Part shown: piece by piece, positions 3,880 to 30,043 of the stretch
Position numbering within the stretch: position 1 is the first letter of the stretch
Layout: every line of letters begins with the position of its first letter
Virus record (IMG/VR): IMGVR_UViG_3300021087_000057
Location: 1-30,043 of that record
Reading direction: 5' to 3' (one strand)
From: a virus
DNA length: 30,043 nt
The notes under the pieces: model-generated
Database searches by the model: none
What the model was told of the DNA's origin: nothing
The model's input: only the letters and a program-made list of their open reading frames with translations
Made by a program: the position numbers and the translations under genes

Positions 3880-6647
3880 TATGTCGTAACCCCTTCTTGT
3901 GTACCAGCAGTATGATATGTCCAAAGAACTGCACCAGAAGAGTTACATAGATTAAGTTTATTAGGAAACATATGTTTTGCTGTATTATCCATATGCCCCA
4001 TTATTCTATGTATATCGTTATAATCTGTTTGGGTTGTTATGACCTCTGCTTCTTCCACAAGAATATTACTATCGGCATTAGTAGAGGAACCATCTGTTCC
4101 ATTCAAAACCACATCATCACCAGCATTAGAACTACTAGAATCTGTTCCATTTAACAGGATATTATCTCCACCCTGCTTATTAGGAAAGACCATTTTACCT
4201 GTAGAACTAAGAGACATTGCTTCAGATGCCGCTTCTGATACACCTGTCATGAAACTTAATTTAGTTGCATTATTTGATGCACTAAAGTCACCCTCTGAAA
4301 TTGCTTCGATAGCAGCGGTAACTAAGTTTGCGTCTGTTCCAGTTGTTTCTGCTGGTGCTCTATATTGTAAAGAACCAATAACATCGTCCAATTCGATATT
4401 TTCTTCACCAGTTTCTAATGTAAGTCTTACAGTGCTACCATCACCAGTTGCATTATGTTTTACTAAAATTCCTGAATTAAGTTCATGTATAACTTGTATC
4501 TCATTACTCTCTCCCATAGAAAGTATTGCACCATCTGAATCCATAATGATGTCATCTTCAACTTGGACATCTTGTGAGAAGGTAACTAAACCACCAGCAG
4601 AAATTGCAATCGCATCCGTATCAGAGTTGGCACCAACATTACCTCCGTCTGCAATCTTCAATCCACCTGTAAAGGTTGCCTGTTGTGAAAATGTAACCTT
4701 ACCATCAGAAGCAATTGCCATTGCATCTAAGTCTGAGGCAGAACCTATATTTCCATCATCAGCAACAACCACACTGGTAAGGGTTCCTACGGCAGTAATA
4801 GCAGATTGAGTAGCACCAGTAACAGTTGCGGCGGTGCCACTTGCGTTTCCAGTTACATTACCTGTAAGTGGTCCTGCAAATGCTGTTGCAGTAAGAGTAT
4901 CAGTAGCAGAATTAAACGTAAGACCAGCAGCGGACTTTGCCGATAAATTACCAGTAGCACCTGTTACAAATACAGGAAAACATGTTGTATCAGAAGATTC
5001 ATCTGCTACAGTAAATGTTCCAGCATTAGAACCAACAACACCAGAAAATGATAGAACACCATTGCCATCAGTAACTAATGCATCACCAGCAGATGATCCA
5101 TCAGCAGTTGGTAATTTCCAAATCTGATTTCCAGCAAGTGAGGTACTAGCAGCGAAACCAACATAATTAGAACCATTATACCATCTTAGTTCTTTCTCAT
5201 CACCAGTTAGATGTACATAATCTGCTGGTTCTATTCCCTGACTAAAGGATACTATACCACCAGAACTAATTGCCATAGCATCAGTATCAGAAGCAGAACC
5301 TATGTTTCCAGCATCAGCAATAGTCAATCCTGTTAATGTGCCTACGGAAGTGATGTTTGCTTGAGCAGCGGTCTGAAGTGTACCAGTATATCCTGTCGAA
5401 GTTATTATTCCAGTACTTGGATTGTATGTTAATCCAACATCAGTTTCAGCATCTTGTGCTCCTGTTTGCCCATCCACAAAAACAGGATAAACAGTTTCAT
5501 TCGCACTGTCGTTAGCAGATGAAGTAAATTGGGTTGCCGTGTCAGCATTACCAGTTAAAGCACCTGTAACATCACCTTCTAGGTTAGAAATTAATGTTCC
5601 TGTTGCAACTGTAAGTGATCCAGTTGCTGTTCCTATAGCAGTTGTTGTTCCTAATTTAAATTTATCAGATGCCTCTACCCATACAAAAGCAGCGTTATTT
5701 CCAGTAGAACCACGTTCAAAAATAAACCCTAAGTCATTTGCATTACTGGATGCGCCTGTGTTTAATTCTATAAGACTATCGGCAATAACAGAGTTAGTAG
5801 AGGAAATAGTTGTTGTTGCACCTTGAACTTCAAGAGTTCCAGATACAAGTAAGTTTTGAGAAACAGTTACGTTACCAGTAGCATCTATTGCTATAGAATC
5901 TGTATCGGATGCAGAACCTATATTACCATCATCAGCAATAACCAAACCTGTTAGTGTGCCGACAGAAGTAATTTGACTTTGAGCGGCATCGACACTAAGT
6001 GTATTCGTTGAAAGAGTAAGTCCAGTTCCATCCACAAGGGCAGTCTTTGACATTGCAATGGCGGCATCTGATTTAACATCAGCATTAATAATAACACCAG
6101 TACCAATTGCAGCTATTCCTGTAACATTACCACTACCATCAAAGGATGCAGAAGTCCATGTTACATCTCCTGTGGATGCAATAGTTCTAGCACTTGCTAG
6201 TGCAGTAGCAGTCGTAGCATTACCAGACAATGCACCAGAGAATATGGTTGCGGCCACTGTTCCAGAACTAGGATTATAAGTTAGATCACCATCTGATTCA
6301 AGAGAGACAGTACCACCATCTAAGTCAGCATCAGCAACAAATACAATTGCATTATTTTCATTTGTAGATTCATTGTCTGTAACAACAACGGTGGTGCCAG
6401 TAACAGTCGAACCTGAAGTTAGAACTGTCCCAGTTTCATCAGGAAACGTGATAGTGCGATCAGCAGTAGGGTTTGTTTGCGTCCACGTGGATTCAAAATC
6501 ATCAGCAGAAGAACCTTCAAAAACGAGGGAACTTGTGAAGGAAGAATTATCTTTAATATCATTAACATCTGATATTAATTTATTAAATTCTAGTCTAAAC
6601 TCTTCTAATGTTTGTCCAGAAGTTATATTACTCGCAGTAATTGCCAT
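3879..6647 (-). CDS. Long tail fibre protein, repetitive
   Basis: The 922-aa product is rich in Ser, Thr, Ala, Gly and Asp and is built largely of short beta-rich repeats, as in marine myovirus fibres. The N-terminus has a helical segment (LEEFRLEFNKLISDVNDIKD). A DDFESTW...PTADRTITFPDETGTV module follows at about residues 48-80. Four copies of an IADDGNIGSASDTDAIAI-type unit follow, separated by collagen-like or linker sequence such as LSGNATTATAL. Near the C-terminus are two NGTDSSSSNAGD-type units. No peptidase S74 intramolecular chaperone domain is seen at the C-terminus (ending HTAGTQEGVTT), so trimerisation probably needs a separate chaperone or the tip proteins. It lies 4 nt after the 75-aa coiled-coil gene. 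Confidence 0.85.
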   Translation of the reverse strand: MAITASNITSGQTLEEFRLEFNKLISDVNDIKDNSSFTSSLVFEGSSADDFESTWTQTNPTADRTITFPDETGTVLTSGSTVTGTTVVVTDNESTNENNAIVFVADADLDGGTVSLESDGDLTYNPSSGTVAATIFSGALSGNATTATALASARTIASTGDVTWTSASFDGSGNVTGIAAIGTGVIINADVKSDAAIAMSKTALVDGTGLTLSTNTLSVDAAQSQITSVGTLTGLVIADDGNIGSASDTDSIAIDATGNVTVSQNLLVSGTLEVQGATTTISSTNSVIADSLIELNTGASSNANDLGFIFERGSTGNNAAFVWVEASDKFKLGTTTAIGTATGSLTVATGTLISNLEGDVTGALTGNADTATQFTSSANDSANETVYPVFVDGQTGAQDAETDVGLTYNPSTGIITSTGYTGTLQTAAQANITSVGTLTGLTIADAGNIGSASDTDAMAISSGGIVSFSQGIEPADYVHLTGDEKELRWYNGSNYVGFAASTSLAGNQIWKLPTADGSSAGDALVTDGNGVLSFSGVVGSNAGTFTVADESSDTTCFPVFVTGATGNLSAKSAAGLTFNSATDTLTATAFAGPLTGNVTGNASGTAATVTGATQSAITAVGTLTSVVVADDGNIGSASDLDAMAIASDGKVTFSQQATFTGGLKIADGGNVGANSDTDAIAISAGGLVTFSQDVQVEDDIIMDSDGAILSMGESNEIQVIHELNSGILVKHNATGDGSTVRLTLETGEENIELDDVIGSLQYRAPAETTGTDANLVTAAIEAISEGDFSASNNATKLSFMTGVSEAASEAMSLSSTGKMVFPNKQGGDNILLNGTDSSSSNAGDDVVLNGTDGSSTNADSNILVEEAEVITTQTDYNDIHRIMGHMDNTAKHMFPNKLNLCNSSGAVLWTYHTAGTQEGVTT
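4060..4170 (-). repeat. Two NGTDSSSSNAGD-type units in the fibre C-terminal region
   Basis: Two adjacent copies of a short unit (LNGTDSSSSNAGDD and LNGTDGSSTNADSN) match the motif that recurs many times in the 1629-aa wedge-associated protein and once in the 2161-aa protein. They are followed by an acidic VEEAEV segment. Confidence 0.8.
4570..5945 (-). repeat. Four DGNIGSASDTDAIAI-type repeats inside the tail fibre
   Basis: Four copies of a ~30-aa unit (pattern IADxGNIGSASDxDAxAIxxxGxVxFSQ) lie at about 5855-5945, 5237-5327, 4680-4770 and 4572-4660. They are partly conserved at the nucleotide level. Three are preceded by a T-x-V-G-T-L-T-x-[LV] strand. They probably form repeated beta units along the fibre shaft. 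Confidence 0.8.
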
Positions 6648-6879: not shown

Positions 6880-9800
6880 TTATGTTGCCAGTGCTATACA
6901 TCTCAAGTCTTTAATTCTTGGAGGTTCTGATGAATTTGTTCCCTGCATAACAATTTTAATAGAGAAGGATATAAATTCATCTAATGCTGTTTCTGTTCCA
7001 TCATCCTTCACACCAGCAGTATATTCATATTGCTGAAAATCATCGACTGTCAGAGAAGTATTTGTTGGTGTATCAGTAGTCCCTGTAGTATTAAAATATG
7101 TCCATCCTAAATCATCAAAATCAGAAGCATCGTCCGTTCTTAATGTCTTAAATAAAACTTTAATCTCAGCAGAACTATGTCGATAACCAGCAAAGAAAAC
7201 TCTCAAAGCAGTTGCAGGATTTTCAAGAGTAACTTTCTTTGTCATATAAATCGCTGCATTGTTGTCACCTTCAGGATCAGTCACCGCAACAAAATCTGTG
7301 GTTGGAAAGACATCAGAAGATGAATCTATATTATCCAATCTATTGGCAACCGCAATCCACGATGCTCTTTCTGTATCAATTACAGGAGATAAATTGACTC
7401 TTGTTGAAGCTAATGTTAATGGTATTTGTAATGATGGAGATCCAGATAATTCATTTGATTCATTAATAGCAGAGCACACCATTTGTGTTTCATCAAAATA
7501 TACATTTTCTCCTATAGGAATGCTTGTTGCATTTGATACGGATGTTTCTATAAACGAAGTTTCAGCACCTGATGGACTTGTTCCAGTAGTAGATTGTATC
7601 TGTGCTTTAATATCTGTATTATTCATTTTCATTGTAGAAATCATTGTCATACCAGTATTATAAATTGCATTTTCTGTTACAACTACAGAGGTTCCACCAT
7701 TTTCTGCTGTATCAGACCCACCAGCAATTACTGGTGTGCTTGAAAGAACAATAGTATAATAATCCATCCCGATATTAGCAATCGCAGTATGTGTCTTATT
7801 AATCTCAGTAAATGGAACCTTATGCAACATATAAAGTTCTACAGTTGCACCATCAGCATGAGCTGCAGCGGTAGTACTATCTTGTGCTCTAGTAATACCA
7901 GACACAGCAGTCGTACTGATGGCATTATATTTCATAATTTCATCATCAATTTTAATATACCATTCACTACTAGCATCTTGAGAAAATTTGCCAGAAGTGT
8001 CATCAAAGTTTGTTTCCAAAGTAAGTGTTAAAGTTGTTTGAGCTGCTGTAATTGCACCATTAAGTGTTGTAGTAGCACCAGATTTCACTCCACTTATTGT
8101 TACATTATTTGCCGTAGAATGCATATGGTGATTTGGATGTTTAACACGTAAAATTGTGCTACTGTTTGTAAAAATTAATGGATTTCCTGCCAGTGTTTTG
8201 GTAGGCACGGCATCATTCTTCAAAGTAACAACACCAACAGTTCCTATCGTAAACTCAGCTTTTCTTAAAGTAAACTTTAAATCTTCTCTTAAAGAAGGAG
8301 CAAAAGTTCTGTTGTTATGACCTTTAAATAATACACCTGTATGTGGTTGTTCTGAAATAGTCCTTGTTCCACCAATGTCTGTTTCCCCCATACGAGAGAT
8401 CCATACCTTATGTGTAGGTGTGGATGCTATAACAACAATACAATATTCATGTCCACCTTGAACATAAACAGGTGAAGGAAAAGTATATGTCGTTGCTGTA
8501 GATGCATCATCTGAAACATTAATATCTGATGTTTCTTTTACAACCCTACCAAAAGGAAGAACCTTTGGTCCAGGATGTCCATTAATAACATTTCTAATCT
8601 CTACAGTAACAGGAAGATTATCATCTTTTTCTGCATGAAAAAGATCAAGACTAGTAAGGAATAGTCCAGCTTCTCCATCACTAGAACTCTCTTCTATAAA
8701 GAAGGTTTGTGCGAGAGGATCGTCGTATCCAGCAAATTGGCCAGTATCTGTTTCATCTTCCGTACCGCCTGGGGATGTTGTATCATTCTGCGACACTGTG
8801 GAGGTGTCTGGGCTGCCAAGAGGTTCATTGCCTGATTCACCTCCACCACCACCAAAGTTTCTTGGGGGAGATAATCTAACAGAACTAGAAGATGTTGATG
8901 ATGTTTCATTAACACCACGTACTTGTATTTCAGCATTTCTAATAGCAAGAATAGATTCCTGTTCTGTTTCTAAAATACCTTTCGCATAATATATTGCTTG
9001 ACCAGCAGTAACAGGGTCAACGGTAGTAATATTCGTTTCACTAGAGGTCAGTCTAAATTGTAGTTCTCCTGCTTGCCATATTATATTTCCAGCAACCAAA
9101 GGATCAGGAATTACAAAAGTTCCACTCACCTTACCACTAGCAGATGTAACCATAGGACTTCCTTGTACTATAGTTTCTTCCGCAACAGAAAATCCAGCAT
9201 CAGGAGTGCAAAATTCACTTATTGCTCTTTTATCAAAAAATGCAAAAACTCTTGTATTAGGATAAAATCCTTGTCCCACAAATTTAACATTTCTAGACCG
9301 AATATAAGGAATAACTGCCCTAGCAATTACCTTTGTTCCTTGAGATTCAAAATCAACTCTTTCTACAACATCTGTTCTAATACCTGTTCTTACTAAATCA
9401 GTTCTACTAGTTGTAATTGTTCTTGTTTGCCGACCAGGATTGGCTATAACTCTGGTAGATACTACACCGCTCCATTGAGTTTGCCAAGCATTCCATACAG
9501 TACCAATTTGACTTTGGTTTGCCTCAAAGAAAGTATCAAAGTTTCCTTCAACATTAATAATAAGATCAGGAGCAACTTCAGTTTCAAACCATTCATCACT
9601 AGACGGAGTTAACTCAATAGTCCCTCTCCAATTCGAAATAAGAACAGGAGTTATTCTTTCTACCCTAGAGGCAAATGGTTGATTTTCAGATGTTACTTCC
9701 GTATAAGGTAATGTAATAAGATCACCAGTTTTTTGATATCCAACACCAGCACGTTCTGCATCTGTCGTAGCAGTTTCTATTAAAGAAATACCCTTCATTT

Positions 9801-12800
9801 GATGTTTTGGTCTTAATTCTTTCTTTTCAAAATCAATAGCATTTTTATAATCAACGTGCTGAGTATCACCAACACGATGTCCAGAAAAATTATCTACTAC
9901 AAATCCAGATTTAAATCTGTTAAGGCCATTAGAGTCTTGAATTTCAAAACTTTCTGCATCTCGTTCTAAAAGAGAGAGTGCTGTATAATATTCTACATTA
10001 TCAATACGATCTTCAAGTCTACCAATATCTTTCATAGTATACCGTTGATTTTTTTGTCTTCTAACAGATACATCTTGTGGTTTAAAAGTAAATGCTGGTA
10101 AATATAATGTACCCAATTTCATCATACCATCAGGTTCTTTTGGCACCACAGGTTGCTCATCAGATTCTCCCTCTGTAATAACAAATTCACCTTGTCTATT
10201 AATATGGACTAATACCCACTTTGGCAGAAAATATTCAAAATCACTTTGAATGTTTGCCCCAGGATTTGGAAAATTTGTTGTAGACGAACCAGTACCATCA
10301 AATTGTCTGTGGAAATAATCAAAAGAGTTTCCTGTTATTTCGTCCACGACTTCTCCAGAACTTGAAGCACCAGCAATATCTTCTACTCTAGGTCTAAAAT
10401 CATATGCATCATACAAAGGATATTCGCCTGTTGGAGCTGGATTGTCAGGATCAACCTTTGTAGCAGTGTATGTTGGTATATCTTCAAAATTCATTTGATC
10501 TGCTACATCTACATAAGAATCAACAGTAAAACATTCTCCAGCACCATGTTCCATATAATCATGCACTATAAGAAGTCTTCCTAGAGGTTTCTCTGATCCA
10601 GATTTTCTTACTATTCTAGAAATATCATAAAAGTTATCTCTCTGACCAGTATCAAGAAGATACCTGTTAGTAACAACAGTACTTCCTTCTGTCACAGCAG
10701 AAACCGTTCCAGTTGCACCAGTAGAAGATCCAGTTATAGTATCTGATATAGCAAAATCTTTTAAACCTGATCGGACAAAACTTATAGGACTAGTATTATT
10801 AATAATCCTTCCCTTGGCACCAGAGGTTCCACCTGTTATTACTTCACCCTTAGTAAATACCCCAGTAGTTGCACTTAATGTTAATGTTGGTGCGGCCGCA
10901 TCAGCTGAAGTATCTTCCGAATCATACACACCAACAAGTTTAAAGGAATCTGCTCTTCCTAGAGATATTGTTTTGTCTGTAGGTCTTGTTCCATATGCAT
11001 CAGTCGCACCAGTATCTACCTTAACCTGTTTCATTAAAGTACAAGTTTTAGATTTAGCAGTAACACCTGTTTTTAATAATGTGGCAATTATTTTAACCTT
11101 GGCACCATTACCAAGAACTCCTGCATTAGTAATTGTTACGGTTGATGTACCACCACCTGAAAATCCAGTACCACAACTAACAACATCTCCCTGTTGTCCA
11201 GAACCAGCACCACCAGCAGAAAGAATTGTCATCGTATAATTTGCTTCACTATGCGATAAGAATGTCTCTCCTGTTTCACCACTTATAGTAACTACACCAA
11301 CGGCACTGCCACTTACCACATATTGCCGTCTAACTTGAAACTGAGTATCACTTACCCCATTATTGGTAGTTGTCAAATGTGTCTTAACTGTTTTCTTTAT
11401 TGCTTTAAATAGAGAAATATTTTTTTCTGCTTCCTGTAGTTTTGCTACTAATTTTGACGAACCAGTTCCAGCAGAGGCACCCAATTCTATAGAAGTATGA
11501 TCACCATTACTAGTCGTTGTAGTAGTTCCATCCTCCATTCTTAAATTATCTTCAGCATTTGCAGATGTTGAATCTGTTCCATCCAAAAGTAAAAAGGAAG
11601 CATCAGTATTAATAGTAGATAATGCTATATCGGCAGAGAAATTTTCTCCTGTATCATCATCGGCCATAAAGACTTGTCTTACTTCTGAAAATGAACTTAG
11701 TTTAATAGAGACTATTGTTAAATCTGTATTACCCGAATTCTCAACAATCAAGTCTGATTCGGCCGAATCAGATGCCTTAATATTTTCTCCAGACACAAAA
11801 TTGCCAGCAACATTTGTTAGTATAACCTGAGTGCCACTAGTACCATCTGCAAATACAAATCCCGTTGCCCCTGAAGTGTTTCCCGTTACCTGAACACCAC
11901 CGTCTGAATGATTAGCAGTAAGAGTAGCACTAGGAGTTCCACTTAATGTCAAGAATGTAAATGGCCGTATATCAAAAAGAAATAGTTTATATATTGTTTC
12001 TTCTAGGCCCACAGTACCACTACTAAATTCCATAGTCCTTGCTCGACCAATACCAATTCTAGTTCCAGCAGAAGACCCCCTTGTTATCGTTGGTGTGTCA
12101 AAAAGAGATATCTGTTTATATGCAGTTGCTTCATTAGTAATTGCTGAAATATCAGGACTACCATACACATTATTAATATTAACAAAATTACCAACATCAA
12201 AAGAAGTAATTCCAGCATTCACAGTATTAAAGTCTCTTGCCTTGTTTATATCTTTCAAGACAGGAGAAATTTTTTCTAGTTCATATCCTTTAACATATAC
12301 TTTACCAGGAGATACTTTGAGTGAAAGTAAAGAACTTGATGCCGTATTGTCATCCTCAGTTGTTTCATCAACGGCAAATACACCTTCATTCTCATTCACC
12401 GTAACACATTCTCTTAGTTCAAATTGAAAAGGTCTGACTGAGTAGTCACCAGATTCATCAAAGGTTCTACGAGCAAAGGTATCTTCTATCGTTCCAAATT
12501 CTGTATCTCGAACTTGGGATAATACAAAACCTTTTCTTACTCTCATCAACTCAACAAAATCTTCATCAGCAGTAGATGTTTCCGAAAGAGTTGCCAAGGC
12601 ACATGAAATTTTAAGTCTATGAGCACCCTTTGCGGCGAAGTTTGAAGACCCCTGAGAATTATCTGTAAGAGAAGAATCTACTTCAGGTGTTACAAGAGTT
12701 TCAGTAATTTTAAGACCAACTCTCCCAGAAAATCGTTGATCAAATTTTGATAAAACTAATGTCTCTTCTTCTACTTCTACAAACTGCCCTCTTATATAAT

Positions 12801-13365
12801 AAACCCCTGCTTGAATATTTGATCCACTACCTACCCCTGTAGCATCTGTCGATGCAGTAGTAGCAGAAGCAACACCAGAGGAATAAGAAGTTGTGTGTGT
12901 AATACCTACATCGGCAGAAAGATTTTCTCCATTAGCAAAAACAAGAGTAGTATTATCTGTACCTGAAGCAATGTATTGGACATACAATACTGGAGGATCT
13001 TCAGTGGTAGGTTCTACGATAAAATGAACCTTTGCTTTAACTCCAGTTGTTGCACCAGTTAAAGTTACGGGGGTTGCGGTATTTAAATATTGAGCAAGTT
13101 TTATAGTTTCTGAAGAAAATGAATTTTCTAATTTTACAAATGCGAGTTGTGGTTGTAAACTTATTTGACCAGGAATTATCATAGCACCTTCTTTAAAAAG
13201 GTGTCTACCCTGATGCTCCATTTGATTCTGTAACAAACTTTGTAGTTGTGTTAATTCTCTTGCCTGAACAGCAAATCCAGGTCTAAACAATACCTGTTGA
13301 AAATTATCTGTAGAATCAAAATCGTCAAAATATGGAGCGACATTTAAATTTGTTTTTTGTGCCAT
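6880..13365 (-). CDS. Giant virion structural protein (DUF4815-like N-terminus), baseplate periphery or fibre
   Basis: The 2161-aa product opens with a segment I recognise from marine T4-like phage structural proteins: NVAPYFDDFD followed by FRPGFAVQARELTQLQSLLQ (residues 27-46) and a KEGAMIIPG element. I associate this with the DUF4815 family. The long middle is Thr/Ser/Gly-rich beta sequence with GExIxGxTSGAxG modules and one LLDGTDSTSANAED unit (about nt 11540-11590). Around residue 1545 a distinct domain begins (DDPLAQTFFIEE, then LFLTSLDLFHAEKD and VEIRNVINGHPGP). It sits just after gp8, where T4 has gp9-gp12, so it may take over part of the gp10 or fibre-attachment role. That is inferred from synteny. 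Confidence 0.85.
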   Translation of the reverse strand: MAQKTNLNVAPYFDDFDSTDNFQQVLFRPGFAVQARELTQLQSLLQNQMEHQGRHLFKEGAMIIPGQISLQPQLAFVKLENSFSSETIKLAQYLNTATPVTLTGATTGVKAKVHFIVEPTTEDPPVLYVQYIASGTDNTTLVFANGENLSADVGITHTTSYSSGVASATTASTDATGVGSGSNIQAGVYYIRGQFVEVEEETLVLSKFDQRFSGRVGLKITETLVTPEVDSSLTDNSQGSSNFAAKGAHRLKISCALATLSETSTADEDFVELMRVRKGFVLSQVRDTEFGTIEDTFARRTFDESGDYSVRPFQFELRECVTVNENEGVFAVDETTEDDNTASSSLLSLKVSPGKVYVKGYELEKISPVLKDINKARDFNTVNAGITSFDVGNFVNINNVYGSPDISAITNEATAYKQISLFDTPTITRGSSAGTRIGIGRARTMEFSSGTVGLEETIYKLFLFDIRPFTFLTLSGTPSATLTANHSDGGVQVTGNTSGATGFVFADGTSGTQVILTNVAGNFVSGENIKASDSAESDLIVENSGNTDLTIVSIKLSSFSEVRQVFMADDDTGENFSADIALSTINTDASFLLLDGTDSTSANAEDNLRMEDGTTTTTSNGDHTSIELGASAGTGSSKLVAKLQEAEKNISLFKAIKKTVKTHLTTTNNGVSDTQFQVRRQYVVSGSAVGVVTISGETGETFLSHSEANYTMTILSAGGAGSGQQGDVVSCGTGFSGGGTSTVTITNAGVLGNGAKVKIIATLLKTGVTAKSKTCTLMKQVKVDTGATDAYGTRPTDKTISLGRADSFKLVGVYDSEDTSADAAAPTLTLSATTGVFTKGEVITGGTSGAKGRIINNTSPISFVRSGLKDFAISDTITGSSTGATGTVSAVTEGSTVVTNRYLLDTGQRDNFYDISRIVRKSGSEKPLGRLLIVHDYMEHGAGECFTVDSYVDVADQMNFEDIPTYTATKVDPDNPAPTGEYPLYDAYDFRPRVEDIAGASSSGEVVDEITGNSFDYFHRQFDGTGSSTTNFPNPGANIQSDFEYFLPKWVLVHINRQGEFVITEGESDEQPVVPKEPDGMMKLGTLYLPAFTFKPQDVSVRRQKNQRYTMKDIGRLEDRIDNVEYYTALSLLERDAESFEIQDSNGLNRFKSGFVVDNFSGHRVGDTQHVDYKNAIDFEKKELRPKHQMKGISLIETATTDAERAGVGYQKTGDLITLPYTEVTSENQPFASRVERITPVLISNWRGTIELTPSSDEWFETEVAPDLIINVEGNFDTFFEANQSQIGTVWNAWQTQWSGVVSTRVIANPGRQTRTITTSRTDLVRTGIRTDVVERVDFESQGTKVIARAVIPYIRSRNVKFVGQGFYPNTRVFAFFDKRAISEFCTPDAGFSVAEETIVQGSPMVTSASGKVSGTFVIPDPLVAGNIIWQAGELQFRLTSSETNITTVDPVTAGQAIYYAKGILETEQESILAIRNAEIQVRGVNETSSTSSSSVRLSPPRNFGGGGGESGNEPLGSPDTSTVSQNDTTSPGGTEDETDTGQFAGYDDPLAQTFFIEESSSDGEAGLFLTSLDLFHAEKDDNLPVTVEIRNVINGHPGPKVLPFGRVVKETSDINVSDDASTATTYTFPSPVYVQGGHEYCIVVIASTPTHKVWISRMGETDIGGTRTISEQPHTGVLFKGHNNRTFAPSLREDLKFTLRKAEFTIGTVGVVTLKNDAVPTKTLAGNPLIFTNSSTILRVKHPNHHMHSTANNVTISGVKSGATTTLNGAITAAQTTLTLTLETNFDDTSGKFSQDASSEWYIKIDDEIMKYNAISTTAVSGITRAQDSTTAAAHADGATVELYMLHKVPFTEINKTHTAIANIGMDYYTIVLSSTPVIAGGSDTAENGGTSVVVTENAIYNTGMTMISTMKMNNTDIKAQIQSTTGTSPSGAETSFIETSVSNATSIPIGENVYFDETQMVCSAINESNELSGSPSLQIPLTLASTRVNLSPVIDTERASWIAVANRLDNIDSSSDVFPTTDFVAVTDPEGDNNAAIYMTKKVTLENPATALRVFFAGYRHSSAEIKVLFKTLRTDDASDFDDLGWTYFNTTGTTDTPTNTSLTVDDFQQYEYTAGVKDDGTETALDEFISFSIKIVMQGTNSSEPPRIKDLRCIALAT

Positions 13366-15641: not shown

Positions 15642-18600
15642 CTATACCGTTTCATCAAATGTTTGTTGTGTTGTATCCCAAGAGGAATTTGAACTGTCAA
15701 AGTTAGGACTGAAACCAGCAACAACTTGTGGTGTTGATTGTCCTACCAAGGATAAATATGTACCAATTTCAAAATCAATCTTACCCCCTGCCATAGTACC
15801 TGATGCATCCACTTGATCAAATACTACTAGACCTGGATTATGTTGATCTAGAATTGCTTTAGTACCTTCTTCTGAAAGTATCTTATCTCCAGCATCCCGA
15901 CCAGTAGAAATAGTTTGATTTAATATTATATTATCACCAGCATTTGTACTACTACCATCAGTTCCATTTAATACAAATTCTACCGTTTCTCGTTCATCTT
16001 GTAATGCAACGTGACCATGAGTTCTCGTTTTTATCGTTGCTGGTCTGGTAAAATGTACAAAATTAGTTCCAGATGTAAAATTAACTTCTGGTATTGTAGA
16101 TCCACTTTCTGCTTGTAATAATTGACTATCCAACAAGAATTTTCCACTACGTTGTGGAGAGGTGTTCGTTTCTATCAACATATTATTACCAGCAATAGAA
16201 TCTTCCGTCACAATTATAAATCCAGTTTCTAATAGTAAATAATTTTCTGTATCACTACCACTGCTATCAGATCCATCTAAAAATATACCTTCAAAATGAG
16301 TTTCTAAAACAAGATCACCCTCTCCCATATTGGGATCAGAATTTTCCATTTGAAAATATTCTGTAACAATATTATCTCCCAATCCTCTGCCTTCTTGAAC
16401 AAGGAGAGGAGTACGAACTATTTCTTCAATTGTTATTTCACCACTAAGAACATCTTCTGAAACAAAGTTGCTCCCTGCATCCGTAGATGAACTATCTGTT
16501 CCGTCTAATACAAAATTATCTCCATAAGAATTAGTATCATCTTGATGTAAAACCCTAGAGTTAGCATGAGAACCACCACTATCCGTTCTATCTAACAACA
16601 ATAAATTTGGTGTGTTGACATCTACTTGAGTATCTGTAGCATTTTCTAAAGAAACTATATCATTAAATGTTGTTGTCTGTTCCAATGCAAATAAATCATT
16701 AGATCTAAATTGTATATCATCAAAAGTTAAACCACTCCCAAAATCTGCATCAGACGCATCTTCTAACTCTAATGCTTCACCAATATCACCTATAGATCCT
16801 GAATCTTGTACAATTCCGTTTGCTATAATAACACTCCGTGATATAGTTGGTCTGGTAAATACGGTTCCATCTTCAAGTTCAAATCCATTAGCAATAACCT
16901 GAGTTTCAGCAAAGAGTGGTAATCCTGATCTTGACCCTCCTTTAACTGGCCAAGTAACCTCTGGAAGTTTCATGGTTAATGTTACTTTTTGTAAAAGAGA
17001 TACATCTCTATTCCCTGTTGGTGCGAGAGGTGCTTCTTCTGATGAAATTCTTTGAGAGGTATTATCTGTTATAATATGCTCATCAACTAATGTTTCATCT
17101 CCAAGTATAAAACTTCCAGCATTTGTACTGCTACCGTCTGTGCCATCTAATAATTCATATCCACTGTCATCTTCAAATCTGATAAGATAAGGAGATTCCA
17201 ATAACATTCTCTGGAACAACCCAGTTCTCTCTTGTAAAGTTGGATTTGGAATGCCCAATCTTCGTTGTATCTGTATCTGAAAAATTCCTTCCAAAAAGGA
17301 AGCAAGTTCAGGAGAGAATCGTTCCGTATCACCAGTATAATCTACTACATCTCCAGCAGTTGGTATTTGAATATTGGCGGCAATGGAAGATGCCATAGTA
17401 ACCTTACCAAAGGCAGCGAACCCTACTGGATGGGTTGCTTTTTTTAACTCTGTAATATAAGTACCGACTGATTGTCCTAATTTAATTTCATATGAAAAGT
17501 CCTGATAAAAGAAAGAGTCTTGTAATCTAATAACCCCGTCACTAATATGATGATCAGTATTTTTATAAAATCCCTCTTTTTCTGAAGTAATATTAGCATT
17601 CATTGTTACTTTTGCATTATACTGATTTACAATAGTTGCACTGGCACCTCCAGCATCTGATATTACATTATTTTTAATATCAGGGTCACTTTCACTTATC
17701 AAATATGATCCTGCATTATCACTACTAGAATCTGTCCCATCTAATAAAGCATAACCTAAAGTTACAACTTCTCCTTCATCAATAATAGAATCACCAAGAA
17801 TATCTGGAAAATCACCAAAATTTAATCCAGACTCTTGTTTAAGATTAATACCAAATTCTTCATCTATTACATAACCACCATCTTCTAATAAAAGTCGAAG
17901 AACAGAATCTATACCAACATTGATATGATTATCTAATACTATATTGGTACTGTCTCCAATTGTGGGAGCATCTAATAAACTCGTTTCCAATATAAGAGGT
18001 TCGTATGCTTCTCCCATAATTCTAGGAGCAGATACGGTAGCTCCTACAGTGGGATTATCATGCTTAATCGTTACCTGTTCTGTAAATTCATAATCTCCAG
18101 CATCGTTACTATTACTAAAATGATTTTCCATCAACAAAAATTCTTTTGTGTTGACTGTAGCATCTGCTACTGCATCTTCCAAGAGAATATTTGCTTCGGC
18201 ATCTACTGATCTAAATCCACCATCTTCGAAAGTAGTATCGGTTCGTGGATCATTTGTCCCATCATCTGTAATCCATCCTCTAACAGTAAATCTCTGTCTA
18301 CCTGATCCATTTAACTGAAATTTATCTCTAATTATCTGAACATCAGGATAAGGTTTTTCATCTTCAAATAAAAGGTCATCTCCAGCATCTGTGCCACCAC
18401 TGTCAGTTCGATCTAATAATAAACGACTTTCATCTCCCAACAGAGCACCACTTTTTGTTTGTTCATTTTCAAGTTGAACAAATTGGTTCATAGTCGTGCC
18501 TAGCAAAGCTCTCGTAATTTGTTCAACCTCTATTTGATCGATATATGTTTCTAGGGCATCAGAAATTAAATTACCACTACCATCTTCTAATGCTATACTC

Positions 18601-20531
18601 CCACCTTGATCGGTTAAAGTATTATCTAATTGTATAAATTTTCCTGTGATACTAGGAGATTCTAATTCAAACTCTTGTGTTACATCTGCACCAATGGTTT
18701 CAAATTCTATTCTTTCTCTATTCTCTAATGATGCTGTTAATAATTTAGTATCATCATCATAAGCCTTCACAGTACCTACATGACCAGTAGTTGTAAAGGG
18801 ACTTCCTGGTAAAAAAGAACCAGTAACATCCTTTACTATAAGCTTAGTATCAAATGTTCCTACTGGATCAGAATTATAATTAAATCCCCCATCGATTATT
18901 TTTACAGCTGTTATCTGTCCTATAGTATTAGATGTTGCTGTAACAAGTCCACCTGTTCCAGCAGTACTTGTAATAGAAATTGTAGGTAATTTTGTATATC
19001 CACCCCCAGAATCGGTAATGATTATTCTAGAAATAGAACCTTCAGTATCAGCTGCTCCAGCTTCTATTTGAAATCTGTCATTATCTGTACCTGTAATATC
19101 CTGCTGTCTTGTTGTTTGTTCTGTAAGAAAATAATAACCAGCATCCAACGCACTGCCATTTGTACCATCTATTAATATTTGATCTCCAGCATTACTTCTT
19201 GAGTCATCAGTTCCTTCCAAAACCAAAGTAAAATTAACAATACTCTGATTTGTATCTGGTTCCTGTATAAGAAAATCGTCATTATTATCAGTATCTTCCA
19301 ATAAAATACTGCCATCAATAACACCAACAAATCCTTTGGCAGATTCTACAGTAGTATCTGATGCATCAGGAGTAAAGACTAAAGGATCACCAACTCTATA
19401 TAAAGAACCTATGTCATCAATAATAAATCCAGTTACACCTCCAGAAGATATCTCACTAACCTCTGCCGCTGCGAAATTATTACCCACAGTAGGATCAATA
19501 GTAACAGGATCACTAACAGAATAGTGAGCCCCCACTTTCGTGATAGTCGATCCCGACAAAAATGATTTTATAACAAATGACATTGTAACATCTTGTGTAT
19601 TAGATGTTGCTGTTATGGTTTCCCCTGTTTGAAATGTGCCAACAGTTTCTTTAGGATCTATTTCCAACTCAGAAATAGAAACATTCCCTTGAAAGAAAAC
19701 TGTAGAGTTAAGAACAACACTGGTTGTCCCAGAAGAACTTCCTGTTATAGTTTGTCCTACAATATCAGTTGCATCAGATCCACTAACAGCAGCGACTCTC
19801 ATAATAGTAGGTTGACTCCAATTACCCTTGGAAACACGTAACATAAATTTGTTTGGATATACAACCTCTGCTTCCTCATCAAAAAGAATTCTTAAAAAAA
19901 GTTTATGTGCTTCAGACGTTCCTTTTGAAGCATATAGATCCTTAATATTCTTAATAAGATTACGTTTCGAAACTCCTGATGCAAGGGTCTTTGGAATTGA
20001 TTCCAAAAACATATTAAACATCTCATCCAAAAATACAGTAGTAGTATTATCTGTATTTGTATACTCCAAAAGTTGTTGCATATTCTGAACAGGATTTGCA
20101 CGATATGAATCTATCGTTGCTGTTGCATCGGAAGTAGAACCTGTTATGGTTTCACCTATCTCAAATTTTTGTTGGGAAGATACGAAAAGTCTTTTATTAC
20201 CTAGATCATCTACAAGAACTGTTGCGGTTGCTTTAGATGTAGAACCAGTTATAGTTTCATTTGCTACAAACTTACCAGTGGTTCCTGTCCCTGTTTCTGT
20301 ATTAATCTTTACAGGGACATCACCTTCTGATAAAATAAAATTTGTGGAAACTGTTTCTTGTCGTATGCTGTCAATAGTAACAGTCACAATCAATTCCGCT
20401 GCTTCTAGGAATTGATAAAAACTCTTAACAAAAGAAACAAACTTCGGGTGGTCTGCTTGGACAAAATCAGGGACTTGCCCTTCTATCAAAGGAGAAATCT
20501 TTGTAGTTAATTTTCCATCAAAGGGTGCCAT
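15642..20531 (-). CDS. Giant wedge-associated structural protein in the gp7 position
   Basis: The 1629-aa product lies between gp6 and gp8, the place of gp7 in T4 (1032 aa). The N-terminus (VPDFVQADHPKFVSFVKSFY, residues 19-38) is typical of marine T4-like structural proteins. So is a core near residues 155-240, with NMQQLLEYTNTDNTTTVFLD, NLIKNIKDLYASKGT and FLRILFDEEAEVVYP. Between and after these are at least three GExITGSTSxATAT modules, several GGGYxxxPxI-type units and about eleven LDGTDSSxxNAGD units with an acidic tail. Functional equivalence to gp7 is an inference from synteny; I see no convincing residue-level match to T4 gp7. Its start is 4 nt from the gp6 stop. Confidence 0.8.
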   Translation of the reverse strand: MAPFDGKLTTKISPLIEGQVPDFVQADHPKFVSFVKSFYQFLEAAELIVTVTIDSIRQETVSTNFILSEGDVPVKINTETGTGTTGKFVANETITGSTSKATATVLVDDLGNKRLFVSSQQKFEIGETITGSTSDATATIDSYRANPVQNMQQLLEYTNTDNTTTVFLDEMFNMFLESIPKTLASGVSKRNLIKNIKDLYASKGTSEAHKLFLRILFDEEAEVVYPNKFMLRVSKGNWSQPTIMRVAAVSGSDATDIVGQTITGSSSGTTSVVLNSTVFFQGNVSISELEIDPKETVGTFQTGETITATSNTQDVTMSFVIKSFLSGSTITKVGAHYSVSDPVTIDPTVGNNFAAAEVSEISSGGVTGFIIDDIGSLYRVGDPLVFTPDASDTTVESAKGFVGVIDGSILLEDTDNNDDFLIQEPDTNQSIVNFTLVLEGTDDSRSNAGDQILIDGTNGSALDAGYYFLTEQTTRQQDITGTDNDRFQIEAGAADTEGSISRIIITDSGGGYTKLPTISITSTAGTGGLVTATSNTIGQITAVKIIDGGFNYNSDPVGTFDTKLIVKDVTGSFLPGSPFTTTGHVGTVKAYDDDTKLLTASLENRERIEFETIGADVTQEFELESPSITGKFIQLDNTLTDQGGSIALEDGSGNLISDALETYIDQIEVEQITRALLGTTMNQFVQLENEQTKSGALLGDESRLLLDRTDSGGTDAGDDLLFEDEKPYPDVQIIRDKFQLNGSGRQRFTVRGWITDDGTNDPRTDTTFEDGGFRSVDAEANILLEDAVADATVNTKEFLLMENHFSNSNDAGDYEFTEQVTIKHDNPTVGATVSAPRIMGEAYEPLILETSLLDAPTIGDSTNIVLDNHINVGIDSVLRLLLEDGGYVIDEEFGINLKQESGLNFGDFPDILGDSIIDEGEVVTLGYALLDGTDSSSDNAGSYLISESDPDIKNNVISDAGGASATIVNQYNAKVTMNANITSEKEGFYKNTDHHISDGVIRLQDSFFYQDFSYEIKLGQSVGTYITELKKATHPVGFAAFGKVTMASSIAANIQIPTAGDVVDYTGDTERFSPELASFLEGIFQIQIQRRLGIPNPTLQERTGLFQRMLLESPYLIRFEDDSGYELLDGTDGSSTNAGSFILGDETLVDEHIITDNTSQRISSEEAPLAPTGNRDVSLLQKVTLTMKLPEVTWPVKGGSRSGLPLFAETQVIANGFELEDGTVFTRPTISRSVIIANGIVQDSGSIGDIGEALELEDASDADFGSGLTFDDIQFRSNDLFALEQTTTFNDIVSLENATDTQVDVNTPNLLLLDRTDSGGSHANSRVLHQDDTNSYGDNFVLDGTDSSSTDAGSNFVSEDVLSGEITIEEIVRTPLLVQEGRGLGDNIVTEYFQMENSDPNMGEGDLVLETHFEGIFLDGSDSSGSDTENYLLLETGFIIVTEDSIAGNNMLIETNTSPQRSGKFLLDSQLLQAESGSTIPEVNFTSGTNFVHFTRPATIKTRTHGHVALQDERETVEFVLNGTDGSSTNAGDNIILNQTISTGRDAGDKILSEEGTKAILDQHNPGLVVFDQVDASGTMAGGKIDFEIGTYLSLVGQSTPQVVAGFSPNFDSSNSSWDTTQQTFDETV
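15865..19230 (-). repeat. About eleven LDGTDSSxxNAGD units in the 1629-aa protein
   Basis: Units with the pattern h-h-L-[DN]-G-T-[DN]-[SG]-S-x-x-[ND]-A-G-[DS] followed by h-h-x-E are seen near 15867, 15937, 16240, 16470, 16550, 17110, 17700, 18095, 18375, 19130 and 19180. Several are similar at the DNA level (recurring plus-strand ccagcattt...ctactac and tctgttccat...ctaat), which argues for duplication or exchange. The Asp/Gly/Ser/Asn loops could bind a divalent cation; that is untested. Confidence 0.8.
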
Positions 20532-27431: not shown

Positions 27432-28010
27432 CTATTTAGTCTTTATATTTCCAGCAACTACGATTCTATCATGTTTACAAGTCTGAGTAGGCACAGAATG
27501 TAATATCCATGCAGGAAACAATATCATATTTCCTTCTTTTGGTGGAATCTCATGAGTGTGATATTGAGTCTTGAACATTAGGGGAGAACATTCAGAACAA
27601 CTCTCTACATTATACACCCAACTCCATATGTTCGGCCAGTGGTCATGCGTCTGTGTAAAATCACCTTCTTTATACACAGCACCCCAACATTCAGAGGTTT
27701 CCATTCCTATTTTATGAGGACCGTTCTTTTCTGCCAGTTCTATTGCCTGTGTACAAAGTTCGGCAAAGATAGTTTCATTTTTATGCATCCACCAACTAGT
27801 CATAGATGCCTTGACATTAGTTCTACGATTTTGGGTATCTCCATTCTCTAATATAATGGATTTGATATGCTGGTTAGACATACGAGCAAGACAGTCTTCC
27901 TTTGTTACAACAGGGACTATACTCGTAAATGCTATCGCATCAGGATGGTTCCGTAATGCGGTTTTCATAGGAGTTGCCATCATTTCTGCTAGATCTTTAA
28001 GAGCAGACAT
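27432..28010 (-). CDS. 2OG-Fe(II) oxygenase, PF13759-like (phage type)
   Basis: The 192-aa product has the layout of the 2OG-Fe(II) oxygenase family common in marine T4-like phages. These features are an H-x-H/H-x-D type site at H122-D123-H124 in QTHDHWPNIWSWVYNV, the strand LMFKTQYHTH, the PPKEGNMILFPAWILHSVP segment with distal His H171, and the 2OG-binding Arg candidate R182 (HDRIVVAGNI). The likely Fe(II) centre is complete. The substrate is unknown; phage members are suspected to act on proteins or nucleotides. It starts with a TAATG overlap on the 84-aa gene and lies upstream of the spike unit. Confidence 0.8.
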   Translation of the reverse strand: MSALKDLAEMMATPMKTALRNHPDAIAFTSIVPVVTKEDCLARMSNQHIKSIILENGDTQNRRTNVKASMTSWWMHKNETIFAELCTQAIELAEKNGPHKIGMETSECWGAVYKEGDFTQTHDHWPNIWSWVYNVESCSECSPLMFKTQYHTHEIPPKEGNMILFPAWILHSVPTQTCKHDRIVVAGNIKTK

Positions 28011-28264
28011 TAATGAAGAGTCCTCTCCCCAATTTTCTGAGACATCTTCGCCCGATTTTCAGGAAGTGCGGTTTTTACGATATGATCCAGCAAATTCTCT
28101 ATCTCTTCATCAGAAAGAATAACAGTATACAATTCCATTGCTACTTTCATCATCATACCAGAAGTAGCAAGCAATTGAGACGGATCTTGAGGACCAACAT
28201 GATCATTGACAATATCCCACAATTTCTGTGATATTTCCTGTAACTCTTTATCTTCTACAGGCAT
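28010..28264 (-). CDS. Small helical protein of unknown function
   Basis: The 84-aa product is predicted almost entirely helical (DKELQEISQKLWDIVNDHVG, MMMKVAMELYTVILSDEEIE). No motif is recognised. It overlaps the preceding 88-aa gene by 10 nt and the 2OG oxygenase by one base (TAATG), so the three form one translational chain under the sigma70-type promoter at 28557-28585. Confidence 0.7.
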   Translation of the reverse strand: MPVEDKELQEISQKLWDIVNDHVGPQDPSQLLATSGMMMKVAMELYTVILSDEEIENLLDHIVKTALPENRAKMSQKIGERTLH

Positions 28265-28521
28265 TTCAAGATTTCCTTAAAATAAATGTAATCATTTCTC
28301 TTACCATCCTTGGAAGAAACTCCGAGAAATACTGTACCAATATTCTTTTCCTTTACAGGTACGTACTTCTTTAACTTCTTGGAATAGTACAGAGGAACTC
28401 CATCCTTCAGTTTCATATCTTCATACGAATCCATATCAGAGGAAACTTCGGTGATTTTTCCCACACGCAGAACAGAAGGTTCCACGGAGTATTCAATCAG
28501 ATCATTTATATTGCATGTCAT
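28255..28521 (-). CDS. Small unknown protein, 88 aa, first gene after a sigma70-type promoter
   Basis: The product begins MTCNINDLIEYSVEPSVLRV and continues through VGKITEVSSDMDSYEDMKL and VPLYYSKKLKKYVPVKEK, with an FLGVSSKDGKRNDY strand near the end. It looks like a small beta-barrel-type fold, but I assign no family. A Shine-Dalgarno-like AAAGGA lies upstream, and a TTGACA-17-TATAGT promoter predicts transcription starting about 30 nt before the ATG. Expression may therefore begin earlier than the TATAAATA-driven late genes. Confidence 0.72.
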   Translation of the reverse strand: MTCNINDLIEYSVEPSVLRVGKITEVSSDMDSYEDMKLKDGVPLYYSKKLKKYVPVKEKNIGTVFLGVSSKDGKRNDYIYFKEILKCL

Positions 28522-28556
28522 AATATATCCTTTCGCATTGCAATGTTAATAGTAGT

Positions 28557-28585
28557 ACTATACACTATTATAAAAGGTTTGTCAA
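28557..28585 (-). promoter_or_regulatory. Sigma70-type promoter TTGACA-17-TATAGT
   Basis: On the minus strand a perfect -35 hexamer TTGACA (28585-28580) is followed by exactly 17 bp and then TATAGT (28562-28557, one mismatch). The predicted start is near 28550, just upstream of the 88-aa gene. It shares its hexamers and spacing with the rightward promoter at 29495-29523. Confidence 0.8.
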
Positions 28586-28660
28586 GCATTCATTTCATGC
28601 AGTACCAAATAGTGTAGCAATATAAAAAGAACATTATAATAAGAATATAAATGTCAAATA

Positions 28661-28903
28661 TCAATGACCTAGTTCCGTATTTCTTTTAATAACTTCTTCC
28701 CTAGTCGTACATTCAAACTCACCTATGCTGACAAGTGTCTTCGGGAACCTTGCCTGTATCTGTATACGCATCTGAGGTTCCATTAAAGCAATCTTCTTTT
28801 GGCAGAGAGATTGACTTGTATATGCATCTGTATATTGAATCCATCCTGTCGGAATGGGACCAATTAATGTTATTAGTACTGTTAAAAAATAAAGTGTTGT
28901 CAT
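28661..28903 (-). CDS. Small exported or membrane-anchored protein, 80 aa
   Basis: The product starts with a hydrophobic segment (LYFLTVLITLIGPIPTGW, residues 4-21) that could be a signal peptide or anchor. A charged domain follows with two cysteines, C34 (SLCQKK) and C64 (FECTTRE), which could form a disulphide in the periplasm. No family is recognised. CCTAAATA at 28912-28919 and TATAAATG at 29010-29017 lie upstream as weak late-promoter-like sites. The strong leftward sigma70-type promoters further upstream would transcribe through the structured RNA into this gene. Confidence 0.65.
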   Translation of the reverse strand: MTTLYFLTVLITLIGPIPTGWIQYTDAYTSQSLCQKKIALMEPQMRIQIQARFPKTLVSIGEFECTTREEVIKRNTELGH

Positions 28904-29009
28904 AATGTTTTTATTTAGGTTTCGTTTTTAAATATCCAGTTAAGTGTCAGTAAAAAAATGGGGTATGGGGGGAGTATCACCTTTGAAATTTCTCTTTGGA
29001 TACTTATTG

Positions 29010-29017
29010 CATTTATA
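29010..29017 (-). promoter_or_regulatory. Possible late promoter TATAAATG
   Basis: The minus strand reads CTATAAATGC, one mismatch from TATAAATA at the last base, about 107 nt before the 80-aa gene. The distance is long, so this is a weak call. Confidence 0.3.
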
Positions 29018-29034
29018 GATTGATGGAACCTATG

Positions 29035-29333
29035 CATAAACTTTTGACCCACTGTCTGTTAGATACGGAGAGGGAGAGTGTCGGTCCACACTGAACTTCA
29101 TCATTTTACGAAAGACCATTCGGGACACTCTCAATATTAATTCCGATTCATGACAGGGAAATTAGGCTCTACACCTTGGAGGGGAGCAACCCTGTCCTTG
29201 ACCTATTTTACATCCGACCCCCTAGTGTGCCAACGGACTATGCCTAGAACCCGATCAAGTGGGTAACACACGGTGTCTATGGGGTTAACTCTAATTCGTC
29301 ATGTCTTTTATTTCTCTCTCTTTCTCACTCTAT
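29035..29333 (-). ncRNA. Candidate structured non-coding RNA or structured 5' leader
   Basis: A leftward promoter (29340-29368) predicts a transcript from about 29333. Three consecutive stems follow. Stem 1 is 29277-29285 with 29217-29225 (8 of 9 pairs), extended by 29267-29270 with 29226-29229. Stem 2 is 29190-29196 with 29152-29158 (7 pairs, CCCTGTC/GACAGGG) and carries an inner 5-bp stem at 29183-29187 with 29166-29170. Stem 3 is 29124-29132 with 29074-29082 (9 perfect pairs), with an inner GGTC/GACC (29114-29117 with 29083-29086). A further 7-bp match (29258-29264 with 29047-29053) could form a long-range or pseudoknot pairing. I find no match to tRNA, tmRNA, 6S, RNase P or known riboswitch motifs. 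It could be a free RNA or the 5' leader of the 80-aa gene. The ends are approximate. Confidence 0.6.
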
Positions 29334-29339
29334 ACTTAC

Positions 29340-29368
29340 AGTATACACCACTCAGAGGGGATTGTCAA
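29340..29368 (-). promoter_or_regulatory. Sigma70-type promoter TTGACA-17-TATACT
   Basis: The minus strand has TTGACA (29368-29363), 17 bp, then TATACT (29345-29340). The -10 element lies in an inverted repeat TATACT-TAC-AGTATA at 29331-29345. The transcript would run directly into the structured-RNA candidate. Confidence 0.78.
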
Positions 29369-29431
29369 GAGAAATCGACATCAATATCTGTCTTTTTTTC
29401 ATGTGTGATTTATATGCAACACAACATAGAT

Positions 29432-29460
29432 AATATAGCACAAAAAAACACCCTTGTCAA
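29432..29460 (-). promoter_or_regulatory. Sigma70-type promoter TTGACA-17-TATATT
   Basis: The minus strand has TTGACA (29460-29455), 17 bp, then TATATT (29437-29432). It stands 92 bp upstream of the other leftward promoter, in tandem with it. Confidence 0.72.
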
Positions 29461-29494
29461 GTCCCTTTTTAACATTAGGCACCCCTGGAAGCGC

Positions 29495-29523
29495 TTGACA
29501 GAATGCCTCTGATATACTATAGT
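29495..29523 (+). promoter_or_regulatory. Rightward sigma70-type promoter TTGACA-17-TATAGT
   Basis: The plus strand has TTGACA (29495-29500), 17 bp, then TATAGT (29518-29523), with predicted start near 29530. An 8-bp palindrome AAGCGCTT (29489-29496) overlaps the -35 element and could be an operator. It points at the hesB-like gene, giving a ~220-nt leader. Confidence 0.78.
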
Positions 29524-29529
29524 GTTGAA

Positions 29530-29752
29530 TGAGAATACACAAAGAATGCACACCAGAACTAGTGTCTTAGAGAACCGAAAAGGGGCTAACCAGGGAAAGC
29601 AACATATCGAGGGTAGGATTTCGATTATTCGATTATCTCGGTATAATACTGGGAGGTGCTCAGAGAAAAGATCGATGAGTAGCAGAGTAAGACCACAACA
29701 ACTCCATGTTTTTTAGCACCTTTATTGAAAAGTTCCGCAACTAAATACTACT
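29530..29752 (+). promoter_or_regulatory. Leader upstream of hesB-like gene, possible structured RNA
   Basis: The predicted rightward transcript contains an ATCGA/TCGAT stem near 29608-29633, a tandem 8-mer TTCGATTA-TTCGATTA, a TATAAT hexamer at 29642-29647, and a long-range stem AGGTGCT (29654-29660) with AGCACCT (29715-29721). The last arm is followed by TTATT and could act as a weak terminator or translation control. No clear Shine-Dalgarno precedes the downstream ATG; instead ACTAAATACTACT lies directly before it. Confidence 0.45.
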
Positions 29753-30043
29753 ATGGTATCACTCACAAGTAAGGCAAAACAGTACATGAAATCAGTAGTT
29801 CTCAATGGTGACTACGTAACCCTCTCAGTAACAGGTGGTGGTTGCTCTGGTTTTCAATATGTGTGGGGATTAAAATACAGTCAGTCCTCGGATATTGAAT
29901 GGTCTGATCCCATAGAGGGTGTTCTGGTCATAGACCCAGTTGCTGAGATGTATGTTTTGGGCAGTGAAATAGACTATGTTCAAGAACTAGGTGGGTCTTT
30001 TCTCAGTGTCAAAAATCCTATGTCCACTAATAGTTGTGGTTGT
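29753..30043 (+). CDS. HesB/IscA-like A-type iron-sulfur carrier (3' end outside window)
   Basis: The visible 97 codons read MVSLTSKAKQYMKSVV, then a beta-rich core, and end in the family signature. The three conserved cysteines are C31 (TGGGCSGFQY) and C95-G96-C97 (NSCGC), with the usual 64-residue spacing between the first and second. A-type carriers bind Fe-S clusters or iron and deliver them to apo-proteins. The domain is essentially complete; only the extreme C-terminus is cut by the window edge. It is the only convincing plus-strand gene here and is divergent from the late operon, so it probably belongs to an early or middle unit. HesB-like genes are known as auxiliary genes in marine T4-like phages. 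Confidence 0.9.
   Translation, partial: MVSLTSKAKQYMKSVVLNGDYVTLSVTGGGCSGFQYVWGLKYSQSSDIEWSDPIEGVLVIDPVAEMYVLGSEIDYVQELGGSFLSVKNPMSTNSCGC

Follow-up and report, generated by a model that had tools for sequence, protein, structure and literature searches.

The minus strand of the window, the whole 30,043-nt stretch of DNA analysed here, carries a compact hairpin at positions 29071–29135 that belongs to a structured-RNA family of phages. The family is almost certainly real and is apparently new. The novelty lies in the RNA family itself, since small RNAs of phages are already known as a class, and the window is one slightly unusual member. The first-pass annotation had proposed an undescribed structured RNA transcribed leftward through 29035–29333. 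That proposal stands for the third of its three stems, a segment of about 60 nt (29071–29135), and is not supported for the 250–300-nt block as one RNA. Decisive comparative evidence exists for stem 3 only.

The CGAAUGG hairpin and its family

The CGAAUGG hairpin was delineated with a covariance model and with alignments of 18 and 39 sequences that show covariation. It consists, in order, of the closing helix P1, the bulge CGAAU, helix P3, an internal loop in which UUWCGUAWA faces GUG, and the variable hairpin P2. In the window, the 5′ strand of P1, GAGAGUGUC (29124–29132, minus strand), pairs with the 3′ strand, GACACUCUC (29074–29082), at 9 of 9 positions. P3 is formed by GGUCU (29113–29117), placed by RNAalifold, and GGACC (29083–29087), placed by the alignment and RNAalifold. 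P2 is a mini-hairpin with the strands UGA/UCA (29092–29103). The P1/P3/P2 architecture with compensatory changes is found with models R1/R2.

RNAalifold, unaided, recovers P1 (10 pairs) and P3 (5 pairs) from 18 sequences and again from 39. In the 39-sequence alignment P1 shows changes on both sides at all 10 pairs with 96% of cells paired, and 97.5% of cells are paired over the whole structure. Double-change cells number 141, against 33.2 ± 4.5 in shuffles and 25–49 in slid controls, so the compensatory changes by which the first-pass annotation proposed to judge its RNA are present in stem 3. The letters of P1 differ entirely among phages and the pairing is kept, as in CCCCCAUC/GAUGGGGG (L083), GUUCGUCAAACA/UGUUUGACGAAC (L094) and AGCGGGGA/UCCCCGCU (L118). 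In P3, GGUC/GACC of the window becomes GGUG/CACC in L044/L122, its closest syntenic relative, and GGUG/CACU in L127, the same compensatory flip from C-G to G-C. P2 varies in sequence and length with pairing kept (GC, GGC and GGG/CCC elsewhere) and is extended by an additional hairpin in 11 of the 39 sequences; its pair 56-71 varies yet pairs (CG 22, GC 14, AU 3). G-U pairs, the sole non-Watson-Crick standard pairs on the minus strand, fill 43 of 611 cells, as expected for RNA of that strand.

Two further pairings were considered. A possible CGAA/UUCG pseudoknot between columns 16–19 and 26–29 is unsupported; the intended columns are invariant except for column 27, where 4 of the 39 rows have A in place of T. 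Pairing of GGUCUUUC to 23S rRNA is rejected on the ground that GGUC is already base-paired within P3, where it covaries.

Family members are fragments of phage DNA, drawn from public collections of environmental sequences. The 19-mer GAGAGTGTCCCGAATGGTC from stem 3 matches exactly in 18 viral stretches, which have the whole hairpin in common and mostly different gene neighbourhoods. Gapped patterns find 27 stretches, and 61 in the final search; the covariance model supports 60 of the 61 pattern matches at E<1e-8. Three stretches fail, with E values in the range 0.01–0.1: L112, among the 61, and the chance matches L080 and L090, which came from other scans. All supported copies have P1 save one truncated by the contig end. 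The window copy scores 79 bits (E 3e-19, filters off, with the window in the training set). The search pattern fixed CGAAUGGUSUUWCGU and GUGSACY of the core, and their invariance is partly imposed: the pattern-fixed core (CGAATGGTSTTWCGT, GTGSACY) is invariant partly by construction, while P1, P2 and A31/A33 were free. P1 lies outside the search pattern.

Rfam 15 at gathering scores gives 0 matches for the window, L061, L063, L064 and L072, consistent with an undescribed RNA, and E-value scans of window positions 28880–29760 and of the L079 element give sub-threshold chance matches only. ARAGORN predicts 0 tRNA or tmRNA genes in the window. BLAST against 50,697 phage records and plasmids returns promoter or chance matches only. 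Since a core of this length makes a poor BLAST query, nine complete phage isolates, including Melnitz, were also scanned with the covariance model, and no copy was found in them. Model R2 finds none in 398 Pseudomonadota genomes, under stricter filters and without a positive control. The strict pattern has three matches in a bacterial genome collection; R2 gives nothing for two of them and a weak E of 0.035 for one. The core letters were not found printed in the literature searched.

The window copy and the flagged block

The window is part of the genome of a T4-like phage whose nearest isolates are Melnitz, Mosig and HTVC008M, with baseplate wedge proteins 50, 47 and 46% identical, respectively. 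A strong early-type sigma-70 promoter, TTGACA-17-TATACT, is confirmed at 29368–29340 on the minus strand. It would drive the leftward transcript, whose predicted start is near 29333, about 200 nt upstream of the hairpin. The purine-rich leader GTATAGAGTGAGAAAGAGAGAGAAATAAA (29304–29339, minus strand) is of the early-gene start type, and here a 3-codon ORF is all that follows it. The same promoter and leader begin early genes in related phages. The leader is 94% identical over 34 nt to one directly upstream of a Melnitz CDS, related leaders occur in L007 and L020, and the -10/purine leader lies directly 5′ of ATG in Melnitz and metagenomic relatives. The purine-rich 5′ end is thus an ordinary early-gene start, and the role of alternative closing helix once suggested for it is not needed. 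A coding remnant after the leader was rejected as well, as the frames are closed and offer MTN* only.

A second leftward promoter, TTGACA-17-TATATT (29432–29460, minus strand), is unchanged in contig L006. Between the leader and an 80-aa ORF at 28903–28661 (minus strand) lie about 430 nt without a gene; this ORF, the first gene past the element, has a hydrophobic N-terminus and is 88% identical in L044/L122. An intrinsic terminator (stem plus U-run) is absent from 27500–30043, and the sequence after P1, CCTCTCCG, has no U-run. Because the hairpin sits about 200 nt into the leader with no U-run behind it, the window copy would be a domain of a longer leftward transcript, or be freed from it by processing.

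The pairings described for the rest of the block are all present on the minus strand: stem 1 (29217–29225/29277–29285) at 8 of 9 positions, stem 2 (29152–29158/29190–29196) at 7 of 7, and the long-range match (29047–29053/29258–29264) at 7 of 7. The enrichment in G+C is borne out (45% in 29035–29333 against 36% for the whole window). The block is gene-free as reported; all three minus-strand frames are stop-rich, and its edge is overlapped only by a 79-aa plus-strand ORF (29273–29512) judged an unlikely gene. The folding energy, which the earlier annotation also proposed as a check, is no better than that of shuffled sequence. The minus strand of 28980–29335 folds at -78.8 kcal/mol against -85.0 kcal/mol for dinucleotide shuffles (z +1.2), and the plus-strand fold of the block gives z +1.3. 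Taken singly, stem 3 clearly beats chance (z -2.6, 1.5% of shuffles), the stem 2 hairpin (29152–29196) does so weakly (z -1.6) and the stem 1 stem-loop (29217–29285) does not (z +0.5); no independent support was found for stem 1.

L006 is 99.6% identical to the block, with a single substitution, A to C at 29051. This change breaks the long-range 7-bp helix. A piece of stem 1 used as an exact pattern matches in the window's two near-identical contigs only. Stems 1 and 2 are known only from two near-identical contigs; in L044/L122, the next relative, the sequence breaks off at the hairpin. That all of 29035–29333 is one structured RNA of about 300 nt, with the hairpin as one of its domains, is compatible with the other readings considered below and is improbable. 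Its identity in L006 exceeds that of 28522–28903 (86–89%) and 29531–29752 (72%), and the promoter is shared. However, the fold does not beat the shuffles, the long-range helix is broken, stem 1 is in no other contig and the upstream part is missing from the relatives. L006 comes near 100% identity elsewhere as well, so recombination could account for the conserved patch.

Genomic contexts and proposed role

Collapsing near-duplicates leaves 34 distinct contexts. A sigma-70 promoter ends 3–20 nt before P1 in 13 of the 34, compared with 2.8% at random positions within the same loci (binomial 3e-12), and a T-run of at least 4 follows P1 in 22 of the 34, compared with 6.8% in the control (5e-18). 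The hairpin thus tends to open transcripts, ending at a terminator-like U-run. The family as a whole has its own promoter and terminator-like end; the window copy is without a close promoter or T-run. A U-run is missing in L044, L094, L096, L114, L126 and L127 as well. Each member contig searched whole, including those of 111, 89, 82, 73, 72, 57 and 51 kb, has exactly one good copy; some contigs measure 3–10 kb, so the evidence for one copy per genome comes from the longer contigs, all of them incomplete genomes.

The neighbouring genes change from locus to locus. They include a small ORF flanked by DNA polymerase and UvsX, phrog_11903 with RNase H, an exonuclease-like gene, DNA ligase, RtcB-like, RNA-ligase-like and glycosyltransferase-like genes and tRNA arrays; several of these names come from reading the sequence by eye and not from a profile search. 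The tRNA-rich phage contigs L127, L096 (34 tRNAs in 14.5 kb) and L114 carry the hairpin, which in L127 lies upstream of RtcB-like and Pth2-like genes. One copy, an own promoter, a terminator-like end and changing neighbours are more in keeping with a small-RNA gene than with an element that regulates in cis.

The reading we favour, with an even chance of being right, is a phage sRNA that acts in trans through a partner bound by its invariant core. We infer that the RNA accumulates as a discrete species, acts in trans and has a binding partner. The single-copy gene would yield an RNA of about 65–85 nt that folds as one hairpin, with a P1 clamp of free sequence, the invariant bulge CGAAU, P3 (GGUC/GACY), the likewise invariant UUWCGUAWA loop against GUG, and P2 as its variable tip. 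This RNA would in many phages start at its own early promoter and end at, or be trimmed to, the U-run past P1. P1 may shield the ends of the RNA, and the invariant core may offer a surface that a protein, or some other partner, binds in infected cells, most likely in trans. A regulatory or decoy role, as first put forward, is possible. More tentatively, the family may be a phage-specific one, with one copy per genome across several T4-like and other aquatic lineages, whose core is dedicated to binding or inhibiting conserved host machinery. Candidates are RNA polymerase, the ribosome, a tRNA enzyme and a defence nuclease, and the RNA would then be an RNA-based host-takeover factor. The RNA covaries heavily and occurs in about 60 fragments with unrelated neighbourhoods, but in 0 of the 9 isolates scanned; these findings point to a step of infection in aquatic phages that is based on RNA and has gone unstudied. 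The RNA is small with a sharp core, and P1 should be freely swappable while P3 and the core should not, so the partner could be sought directly.

The main rival to the sRNA reading, which we consider rather unlikely, is control in cis by a conditional terminator, or by an antiterminator or put-like polymerase-modifying element. Situated where one early operon begins, it would decide whether polymerase reads on into the genes that follow. A promoter close upstream and a U-run close downstream of the hairpin would suit such an element. In six loci (L078, L079, L097, L100, L106 and L110) an ORF starts 11–32 nt after the element, too close for another promoter, so its message must cross the hairpin. 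Against cis control are the single copy per contig, the lack of a consistent downstream gene, the one hairpin rather than two, and several loci in which the next hundreds of nucleotides contain only tRNA-like or non-coding sequence.

The HK022 put RNA and the manA and wcaG motifs are the closest working analogues, and the tests place the hairpin in neither group. Binding of the beta' zinc-binding domain of RNA polymerase is a defining feature of put RNA. The two stem-loops of put occur in two copies per genome and act in cis on RNA polymerase, with putL directly after PL and putR about 270 nt past the PR start (PMC9378689); the latter distance is close to that of the window copy, about 200 nt past its promoter, and speaks for the cis reading. 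Like put, the hairpin is a phage RNA of similar size with a predicted place in early transcripts, near the promoter or about 200–270 nt past it; the place near the promoter is seen in 13 of the 34 contexts, and the window copy lies about 200 nt downstream. Unlike put, it is a single nested hairpin (P1-P3-P2) with one copy per contig, a distinction drawn on described features. The manA and wcaG motifs (RF01745, RF01761) of T4-like cyanophages lie in the 5′ UTRs of particular sets of genes (PMC2864571). They too are structured RNAs from marine T4-like phages and metagenomes, but the hairpin has no Rfam match and no consistent downstream gene. Methylophilales phage Melnitz has a glutamine riboswitch and a two-piece tmRNA near an early promoter (PMC9004378). 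The likeness is that of a small structured RNA near an early promoter in a related phage; in contrast, the window has no Rfam or ARAGORN match and Melnitz has no copy of the CGAAUGG hairpin.

In many loci the element lies 2–18 nt past a stop codon (a few nucleotides in L098, L099, L102, L109 and L120), with T-runs next. This position would suit a transcript-end stabiliser or plain terminator, in which P1 would cap mRNAs at the 3′ or 5′ end while the core brings in a protein that blocks nucleases. We regard this as improbable too: conservation of a 40–60-nt loop is not seen in ordinary terminators, the window and the six contigs named above have no U-run, and a general stabiliser is expected in multiple copies.

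The compact conserved loops bounded by helices and the clamp of free sequence resemble twister, pistol, hatchet and hammerhead, but the hairpin has no Rfam match to those families. A new class of self-cleaving ribozyme, with a variable P1 clamp, conserved loops, unrelated neighbours and nearby tRNAs, is very unlikely. In size, and in the proportion of variable stem to conserved loop, the element is like small ribozymes, and it precedes an RtcB-like gene in L127 and an RNA-ligase-like gene in L097. Still, a cleavage motif was not recognised, and as no Rfam family matches, none of the ribozyme models in Rfam does. Least probable of all is a ligand-binding riboswitch. A conserved core near a terminator-like stem and before some ORFs recalls one, but the downstream genes share no common pathway or consistent class, and no Rfam riboswitch matches.

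Motif B and other features around the locus

A second conserved element, motif B, is CTATAAATGCAATAAGTATCC in the window (28998–29018, minus strand), about 55 nt beyond the hairpin. In about 20 relatives motif B (TCTATAAATGCAATAAGTATCC) follows 100–300 nt after the hairpin, and it is present without the hairpin in Melnitz, L019, L051, L053 and L057. It is like a T4 late promoter but longer, and ends in TATAAATG as against TTATAAATA at the other late-promoter-like sites of the window. Between hairpin and motif B, tRNA-like sequences occur in L060 (about 3590–3750), L062, L070, L072, L074, L085 (two in tandem) and L088. They have acceptor stems, perfect T-arms (e.g. GGGGGTTCGATTCCCCC) and odd middles; ARAGORN makes one call only among them (L072, His). 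Long non-coding stretches stand directly before motif B in L051 (about 3100–3620), L053 (about 3100–3620) and L020 (about 9565). They share a recurring element, GTYA(C/T)GTTAAAGTTCC...GGTGTGAC, and could represent additional structured RNAs in this position.

Early promoters stand back to back at 29432–29523, the second leftward promoter (TTGACA-17-TATATT, 29460–29432) with TTGACA-17-TATAGT on the plus strand (29495–29523). The plus-strand promoter aims at an IscA/HesB-like ORF at 29753. Past it, 29552–29641 is swapped in L006 for unrelated repeats (AAAGAATGCACTTTAGAGGAGATGTTTTGAAA twice) between flanks of near 100% identity. Near the gene-poor block, 27432–28010 (minus strand) is a 2OG-Fe(II) oxygenase-like gene (phrog_81, E 6e-27). 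Farther away, 15642–20531 (minus strand) encodes a 1629-aa structural-type protein with many DGTDSS(S/G)xNAG-like repeats, and the same type of repeat occurs in 3879–6647 and 6880–13365.
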